Positions 8,455 to 10,579 of a DNA stretch of 36,467 nt are shown here, piece after piece; position 1 is the first letter of the stretch; every line of letters starts with the position of its first letter. This DNA is from Roseomonas sp. (lineage in GTDB: Bacteria; Pseudomonadota; Alphaproteobacteria; Acetobacterales; Acetobacteraceae): NCBI GenBank assembly GCA_020249825.1, contig JADCEX010000131.1:1-36467 (forward strand), written 5' to 3'. The notes under the pieces are model-generated. The model did no database searches and was not told the DNA's origin. It was given only the letters and a program-made list of their open reading frames with translations. Position numbers and translations under genes: made by a program.

Positions 8455-8515
8455 GGGGCTGCCTACCCGTAACTAGTGCTTGACCTTGGCCCCCGGGGGC
8501 GGAAGAGATGCTACC

Positions 8516-9370
8516 ATGCAATTCCGCCGCCTTTTGCCGATTCTGAGCGCCCTGGTGCTGGCCACGCCGGCCTTTGGCCAATCGAGCCTGGGCGGCGCGC
8601 AGAATGTGCCGCCGCCGCGCCAGGCGGCGCCCGCCCCGGCCCAGCGTTCAGAAGCGCGCCCGCCGGTTGTTAATCCGCCGGCCAAGCCCCAGGCCACGCA
8701 GCGCAACACCCAAGGCCAGCAGCAGCGCCCGCCCGGCCAGCAGCAGCAGCGTCAGGCTGGCCAGCCACAGCGCCCCGCCGGTCAGCCGCAGGCGGGCCAA
8801 GGCAATCGCGCTGCCGCCGGCGCTGCCGCGGGTGTCGCCGCCGGTGCCGCTGCCGGGGCCGCTGCCACCGCCGGCGCCGCCAAACCGCCCGAGCCTGCAC
8901 CCACGCCCCCGGCAGAACGCGCGCCTACCACCGGTTCCGTCACCGGCCTGCCGCTGCCGCGCTTTGCCGCGCTGCGTTCCGATGAGGTGAATATGCGGAG
9001 CGGCCCGGGCACGCGCTTTCCCATTGAATGGACCTATCAGCGCCGCGAATTGCCGGTGGAGATTGTGCGCGAATTCGAACTCTGGCGCCGCATCCGCGAC
9101 CCGGAAGGCACCGAAGGCTGGGTGCATCAATCAACGCTGATGGGCAGGCGGTCCTTTGTGGTGCGCGGCGCGCCGGGGTCTGAAGTCATGCTGCGCCGCC
9201 GGGCAGAGGATCAGGCAACCCCGGTTGCGCGGCTGCGCCCAGGCGTGGTGGGCCGCTTACGCGCCTGTGAGGCTAATAACCCCTGGTGTGAGGCGCAAAT
9301 CGGCGAATTCCGGGGCTATATCAAGCGCGCCGATATCTGGGGCGTAGGGCCGAATGAGGAAGTGAAATAA
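8516..9370 (+). CDS. Secreted SH3-domain protein with long Q/P/A-rich low-complexity linker
   Basis: Signal peptide MQFRRLLPILSALVLATPAFGQ; low-complexity QQQRPPGQQQQRQAGQPQRPAGQ...AAAGAAAGVAAGAAAG; bacterial SH3 motif LRSDEVNMRSGPGTRFPIEWTYQRRELPVEIVREFELWRRIRDPEGTEGWVHQSTL. Confidence 0.88.
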   Translation: MQFRRLLPILSALVLATPAFGQSSLGGAQNVPPPRQAAPAPAQRSEARPPVVNPPAKPQATQRNTQGQQQRPPGQQQQRQAGQPQRPAGQPQAGQGNRAAAGAAAGVAAGAAAGAAATAGAAKPPEPAPTPPAERAPTTGSVTGLPLPRFAALRSDEVNMRSGPGTRFPIEWTYQRRELPVEIVREFELWRRIRDPEGTEGWVHQSTLMGRRSFVVRGAPGSEVMLRRRAEDQATPVARLRPGVVGRLRACEANNPWCEAQIGEFRGYIKRADIWGVGPNEEVK

Positions 9371-9412: not shown

Positions 9413-9706
9413 ATGACCGAGGAATCTCCCAACCGCGCGCTGCACGATATTGGCGGGATCGCGCGCTTCCGCTGCACCCCAGTTGAGCATGATGAGGCGC
9501 CGCCCGATGCCTTCGGCAAGAAGGTGGATGCCATTCGGCAAATCCTGGCGCAGAAAAAGATGATGACGGTGGATGAACTCCGCCGCGGCATCGAAAGCAT
9601 CCCGCAGGATGAATATTTCGCGCTTGGCTATTACGAACGCTGGCTGCGTTCCATCGCGGCACTGATGGTCGAAAAAGGCGTGATCCGGCAGGAGGATTTG
9701 GCATGA
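9413..9706 (+). CDS. Nitrile hydratase beta-subunit N-terminal-half protein (SCNase beta / NHase split beta)
   Basis: RALHDIGGIARFRCTPVEHDE... DEYFALGYYERWLRSIAALMVEKGVI resembles the NHase beta N-terminal domain; ATGA overlap with the next gene. Confidence 0.85.
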   Translation: MTEESPNRALHDIGGIARFRCTPVEHDEAPPDAFGKKVDAIRQILAQKKMMTVDELRRGIESIPQDEYFALGYYERWLRSIAALMVEKGVIRQEDLA

Positions 9707-9996
9707 CCACCGCGCCACGTTTTGCCCCCGGCGCGCGAGTGCGCGTGAAGGATGATTGGCCGGAAACCCGCGGCCCCTGCCATATCCGCACGCCTCATTA
9801 TGTGCGCGGGCGGCTCGGCCGCGTGGTGCGCCCGCTGGGTGCCTTCCCGAATCCGGAGGATTTGGCCTTTGCCCGCCCCGCGCCGCGCCGGCAGCTCTAC
9901 CACGTGCTGTTCGAACAGCCGCCCATTTGGAATGAGGGTAAGGCCGGCGATACGGTGATGGTGGAGATCTTCGAACATTGGTTGGAGGAAGCCTGA
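9703..9996 (+). CDS. Nitrile hydratase beta-subunit C-terminal (SH3-like) half protein
   Basis: PRFAPGARVRVKDDWPETRGPCHIRTPHYVRGRLGRVVRPLGAFPNPEDLA...QLYHVLFEQPPIW...VMVEIFEHWLEEA matches the NHase beta C-terminal barrel. Confidence 0.88.
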   Translation: MTTAPRFAPGARVRVKDDWPETRGPCHIRTPHYVRGRLGRVVRPLGAFPNPEDLAFARPAPRRQLYHVLFEQPPIWNEGKAGDTVMVEIFEHWLEEA

Positions 9997-9997
9997 C

Positions 9998-10579
9998 ATG
10001 GCCGCCCCCCCTTCTGGCGCGAGCCTCGCGCTGCTGGATAAGCTGGTTGCTGCCCTTGGTGCCAAGGGATTGGTGAGTGAAACCGAAATCGCCGAGCGTC
10101 AGGCGATCACCGATCGCGCCAGCCCTGAGATTGGCGCGCGCATGGTGGCCCGCGCCTGGACTGACCCTGACTATTACGCGATGCTGATGCGTGATGGGAA
10201 AGCAGCGGCCGAGACGATGGGCGCTTCCATGGCTGGCGCGCCGGAATTGGGTGTCTTGGAAAACACGCCAAAGCAGCATCATTTGGTGGTCTGTACGCTC
10301 TGTTCCTGTTACCCGCGGGCACTTCTGGGCTATCCGCCTGGTTGGTACAAATCCTTCGCCTATCGGTCACGCGCTGTGCGCGAACCGCGCGCGGTGTTGG
10401 CGGAATGGGGCACGCAAATCCCCGATGATGTGGAAATCCGCGTGGTGGATAGCACGGCGGATTACCGCTGGATGGTGCTGCCGATGCGGCCCGCTGGGAC
10501 TGAGGGGTGGAGCGTGGAGAAGCTGGCGGCGATTGTGACGCGGGATGCTTTGGTTGGGGTGGCGGTGCCGCGGGTGTGA
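9998..10579 (+). CDS. Nitrile hydratase alpha-subunit family protein (Co-type metal motif VCTLCSC)
   Basis: VVCTLCSCYPRALLGYPPGWYKSFAYRSRAVREPRAVLAEWG is the NHase alpha metal-claw region; CTLCSC is the cobalt-type variant. Confidence 0.93.
   Translation: MAAPPSGASLALLDKLVAALGAKGLVSETEIAERQAITDRASPEIGARMVARAWTDPDYYAMLMRDGKAAAETMGASMAGAPELGVLENTPKQHHLVVCTLCSCYPRALLGYPPGWYKSFAYRSRAVREPRAVLAEWGTQIPDDVEIRVVDSTADYRWMVLPMRPAGTEGWSVEKLAAIVTRDALVGVAVPRV

Follow-up and report, generated by a model that had tools for sequence, protein, structure and literature searches.

The question raised by this locus is what kind of enzyme is encoded by three adjacent genes in Roseomonas sp. that resemble both nitrile hydratase (NHase) and thiocyanate hydrolase (SCNase), and in which the NHase beta subunit is divided between two genes. 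The window, which is the whole stretch of DNA that was analysed (36,467 nucleotides), is contig C37 of a freshwater MAG of 4.17 Mb in 420 contigs (96.6% complete, 7.8% contaminated). An earlier note on this DNA had described the genes in the order betaN-betaC-alpha, and the order, coordinates, subunit lengths (97, 97 and 193 aa), 4-nt overlap and 1-nt gap that it gave are exact to the base. The features of the locus are as follows.

8513-9370 (8480-9370 with the alternative start), + strand: gene for an SH3_4-domain protein (PF06347, 88.2 bits), 42 nt upstream of betaN
9413-9706, + strand: betaN, 97 aa, N-terminal half of an NHase beta homologue, AnhD-like (PF21006, NHase_beta_N, 60.7 bits, cut-off 21.5)
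9581-9583, + strand: codon for betaN Arg57, aligned to beta-Arg56 of the Fe-NHase 1AHJ
9703-9996, + strand: betaC, 97 aa, C-terminal SH3-like half of an NHase beta homologue, AnhE-like (PF02211, NHase_beta_C, 63.9 bits, cut-off 27.7)
9787-9789, + strand: codon for betaC Arg29, aligned to beta-Arg141 of 1AHJ and invariant in every group aligned
9998-10579, + strand: alpha, 193 aa, AnhA-like NHase alpha subunit (PF02979, NHase_alpha, 250.8 bits, cut-off 27.2)
10292-10309, + strand: metal motif CTLCSC of the cobalt type, alpha Cys99-Cys104, invariant in the window's clade
10316-10318, + strand: codon for alpha Arg107, the SCNase-type residue directly after CSCYP, which is Trp in fused-beta NHases

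All three Pfam matches are well above their cut-offs, which upholds the description of an NHase/SCNase-like operon of three genes, two of which share beta between them. BetaN can be aligned with chains 4FM4_B and 2DD4_B of solved structures, betaC with 1AHJ_B 122-211 and with 2DD4_A, and alpha matches solved NHase alpha chains with E-values down to 4e-56. The stop codon of betaN and the ATG of betaC share the sequence ATGA (9703-9706), and the spacing between betaC and alpha is 1 nt. In comparisons with the three closest relatives, betaN, betaC and alpha have dN/dS values of 0.01-0.13, which indicates that each is a gene in its own right, and purifying selection acts on all of them.

The alpha motif VCTLCSC (residues 98-104) had been taken to predict cobalt together with cysteine oxidation. 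That the motif is of the cobalt type stands, and the metal and the oxidation are expectations drawn from it. If the subunits act as their homologues do, alpha would bind Co(III) through CTLCSC, and the second and third Cys of the motif would be expected to be oxidised to a sulfinate and a sulfenate. BetaN Arg57 (invariant in the alignment of 42 of 42 split and 12 of 12 fusion betaN sequences) and betaC Arg29 would close the oxidised metal site, much like beta-Arg56 and beta-Arg141 in a one-chain beta, and the enzyme would then hydrate a substrate with a C-N triple bond, converting R-CN to R-CONH2.

The phylogeny of alpha against SCNase gamma and NHase alpha, suggested earlier as a check, places the window on the split-beta side and outside the SCNase clade. 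In the tree of 92 alpha subunits, which is midpoint-rooted for drawing only and does not include the S. canus, ToyJ and eukaryotic sequences, a 100/99 branch parts the fused-beta NHases, of the Fe and the Co type alike, from a side made up of betaN-betaC-alpha operons, betaC-alpha-betaN operons, SCNase gamma and betaN-alpha fusions. The window belongs to a 100/100 clade of 34 rows that is made up of Acetobacteraceae split operons and has a long stem (0.84), and the nearest Streptomyces split operon in the tree (L058) lies outside this clade. A recent split among ordinary fused-beta NHases, which the earlier note had considered, does not agree with an alpha subunit that lies beyond the 100/99 branch, though the tree does not settle the ancestral state of beta because its root is a midpoint. 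A second, independent split of beta is found inside the fused-beta side, in alpha-betaN-betaC operons (L120, L121, L124, L128, L130 and L138 from other Acetobacteraceae, and L193 from an Agrobacterium vitis plasmid) whose beta halves have a TGATG stop/start overlap and are mostly followed by an activator-like gene.

Taken with the residues described above, this placement makes it probable that the operon encodes a cobalt-type three-subunit NHase of the AnhD-AnhE-AnhA kind and not a thiocyanate hydrolase. The beta halves are separate and upstream of alpha, the CXLCSC motif and both beta active-site arginines are present as expected for such an enzyme, there is no activator gene, and alpha groups with other split-beta alphas. 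AnhD-AnhE-AnhA of Streptomyces canus CGMCC 13662 likewise has the betaN-betaC-alpha order, subunits of matching sizes (10.4, 11.4 and 21.3 kDa), the cobalt motif and no activator gene (PMC7329996); the window is likened to it by order and sizes, not by sequence, and activity and a chaperone role are demonstrated for the S. canus enzyme only. The three-subunit layout that had also been compared with ToyJKL of Streptomyces rimosus is upheld by description, ToyJKL being an antibiotic-pathway enzyme, a toyocamycin NHase whose alpha subunit is, as cited in PMC7329996, active alone. The split NHase of the Microvirga/Rhizobium type (cited for Microvirga flocculans in PMC11573777) also has beta in two parts, the same side of the alpha tree and Arg at the position of alpha 107, but its order is betaC-alpha-betaN, with alpha between the beta genes, and aquaporin and CbtA/CbtB or NiCoT genes are often nearby.

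Classical two-subunit Co-NHases with a P14K-type activator share the fold, the metal motif and both beta arginines with the window, but they have a one-chain beta, a dedicated activator and Trp at the Arg107 position, and they fall on the opposite side of the alpha tree. The window has neither the single-chain beta nor the dedicated activator of this type, and its alpha narrowly misses the cut-off of the NHase alpha equivalog TIGR01323 (242 bits against 249.85). Besides this score, the evidence that runs counter to an NHase includes the long stem of its clade, the SCNase-type Arg107 and the lack of a neighbouring gene for an amidase, aldoxime dehydratase or cobalt transporter; given the score and the stem, the substrate may differ from that of other NHases. 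Cobalt, oxidised cysteines, a chaperone function for betaN, activity and substrate are all attributes that we infer.

The lack of an activator gene need not mean that the enzyme is inactive. The earlier note saw neither an activator nor an amidase gene next to the operon, and this agrees with the open reading frames and profile matches around the locus. The search for an activator that it proposed for the genome gave the same answer, since the P14K-type activator (TIGR03889) was found in none of 35 genus genomes by a profile search that recovered it from 6 of 6 genomes chosen for activator-bearing operons; with the control working, a distant activator gene elsewhere in the genome was therefore discounted. 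The S. canus enzyme likewise does without an activator gene, and there betaN (AnhD) is itself a metal chaperone and self-subunit-swapping chaperone that acts via AnhD2A (PMC7329996). The missing activator is thus no argument against activity, and the suggestion that the enzyme is inactive for want of a maturation factor loses its force. By analogy with AnhD, the window betaN may double as the maturation chaperone, in which case it would deliver metal and swap subunits through a betaN2-alpha intermediate. Three-subunit NHases have been characterised in few strains only; here is a genus-wide set that is common across the family and has no P14K-type activator in the genus, and it lets one test whether free betaN proteins in general act as chaperones for the maturation of their own enzyme.

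The split operon is present in 35 of 35 genus genomes, either intact or as contig-end pieces. Among a drawn sample of Acetobacteraceae genomes, an NHase alpha occurs in 181 of 300, and nearly all of the further, lower-scoring family loci that were fetched have the order betaN-betaC-alpha. Searches of the literature for nitrile hydratase together with Roseomonas or Acetobacteraceae turned up no report linking them. The split layout is already known from Streptomyces; in the Acetobacteraceae it is a conserved, activator-less, family-wide trait in a divergent, uncharacterised clade.

This distribution bears on an unlikely alternative, in which the operon is a core gene set of the Acetobacteraceae encoding a hydratase with the NHase fold for an endogenous small molecule, such as cyanide, a nitrile derived from an amino acid or some other compound with a C-N triple bond, and not for ordinary nitriles. 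Retention throughout the genus and the broad spread in the family are what such a role would predict, as are the absence of degradation genes beside the operon and a conserved neighbour. The gene for the SH3_4 protein is directly upstream of betaN at 13 of 13 genus loci and 11 of 20 other family loci, and is possibly an operon partner of betaN-betaC-alpha. Downstream genes differ between loci (transglutaminase-like, gamma-glutamyltranspeptidase or MFS), that in the window being sulfotransferase-like. Many NHase operons include a gene for an amidase, an aldoxime dehydratase or a cobalt transporter, and none of these adjoins the operon here. The long stem also fits such a role, as do alpha residues Ala108, Tyr112, Asp155 and Trp158, which are nearly fixed in the alignment of the window's clade and are its own. 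Against an endogenous substrate, the active site has the same residues as in ordinary NHases. The preferred reading of an AnhDEA-type NHase also makes testable a role of NHases as core and not degradation genes.

Two observations concern the same neighbourhood. The SH3_4 protein has an N-terminal part rich in Pro, Ala and Gln, and genes of the ThiF/MoeB family and DsrE-like genes precede the SH3-NHase block at many family loci (L041, L197, L205, L207, L214 and others).

It is very unlikely that the operon encodes a thiocyanate hydrolase with the order scnB-scnA-scnC, converting SCN- to COS and NH3. The likeness that the earlier note saw in the split and the gene order is real, and ScnBAC (2DD4) shares with the window the fold, the side of the alpha tree and an equivalent of alpha Arg107, SCNase gamma Arg136; the identity with SCNase does not hold. 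Arg at the alpha 107 position is common to SCNase and to the split alphas of Streptomyces, Rhizobium and Planktothrix in the alignment. It is not by itself diagnostic of thiocyanate activity, because a Streptomyces split alpha has it and a Streptomyces three-subunit enzyme hydrates nitriles. The residue has been exchanged both ways in solved structures, which according to their entry titles are SCNase R136W (3VYG) and NHase alpha-W116R (3VYH). Alpha scores only 195.7 bits with the SCNase gamma model TIGR03887, far under the cut-off of 291.45, differs at many SCNase-specific positions and lies outside the SCNases, which form a separate 100/100 clade. The subunits are, as had been remarked, shorter than those of SCNase (97, 97 and 193 aa against 157, 126 and 243 aa for the chains of 2DD4), betaN and betaC lacking the extensions of the SCNase beta and alpha chains, and no P15K-like activator was found. 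The score, the separate clade and the subunit lengths are together the grounds on which SCNase was rejected. In an Azospirillum ramasamyi plasmid (L062:2985-3836), an annotated thiocyanate hydrolase gamma follows a single gene whose product joins betaN and betaC, which shows that SCNase beta halves occur fused too.

It is hardly credible that the split arose in assembly or that the genes are inactive. The MAG is in 420 contigs with some contamination and there is no activator gene, but every module begins at a start codon of its own, the active-site residues are intact, and purifying selection together with a split operon throughout the genus and in numerous Acetobacteraceae outside it means that the split can be neither artefactual nor of recent date. 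Contig C72 of the same MAG (3.9 kb, L039) carries a near copy of the SH3-betaN-betaC-alpha block with 87% DNA identity to the window, the same upstream genes and different downstream genes. This copy is probably a co-binned relative, which is the simplest explanation since the other genus genomes have one split copy each.

The operon's more unusual counterpart elsewhere in the genome is a fusion of betaN and alpha that lacks betaC.

C392:62273-63274 (L038:6274-7275), - strand: fusion paralogue, a single chain (about 334 aa) of betaN, an alternating His/Asp run and alpha

Such fusions occur in 23 of 35 genus genomes, each of which also has the split operon; named carriers are Roseomonas MAGs, Falsiroseomonas, Neoroseomonas and Elioraea, and a split operon accompanied the fusion wherever this was checked. 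The fetched flanks of the fusion contain no betaC gene. All 17 genomes checked have one betaC each (two in one of them), located in the split operon wherever the locus was read; the window's MAG has two betaC places, on C37 and C72, and the other genus genomes have at most one, in the split operon. A plasmid search did not find the fusion as one piece. A fold search with a model of the fusion (pLDDT 77.7, linker of low confidence) re-found only NHase alpha and beta chains, and so does not reveal how betaN packs on alpha. Eukaryotic NHases are beta-(His)n-alpha fusions in which beta is complete (PMC2603476, PMC3323583), and an archaeal NHase, as cited in PMC11573777, has alpha fused to its own activator; the betaC-less form was not met in the literature searched.

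The fusion could be a stand-alone hydratase, a sharer of the betaC of the split enzyme, or a partner in cobalt loading. It cannot be generally required, because none was seen in 12 of the 35 genus genomes, and several of those 12 are close to complete. A more elaborate and distinctly unlikely proposal is that the window enzyme belongs to a hydratase subfamily that is spread across the Acetobacteraceae and acts on an endogenous substrate, and that in fusion-bearing genomes such as this one it would be loaded with cobalt in trans by the fusion, the latter being a covalently locked betaN-alpha swapping complex with a metal-binding linker of its own. The fusion offers a natural experiment on whether metal loading or catalysis depends on betaC.

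Similar fusions are present in two genomes of another alphaproteobacterial family, one of which also has a split operon, and an alpha at a contig end suggests that the second does too. One alphaproteobacterium of another family has betaN next to a His-rich alpha as two distinct open reading frames (L220:5505-6492) with no betaC in the 12 kb read, and this pair is perhaps an unfused form of the betaC-less paralogue.
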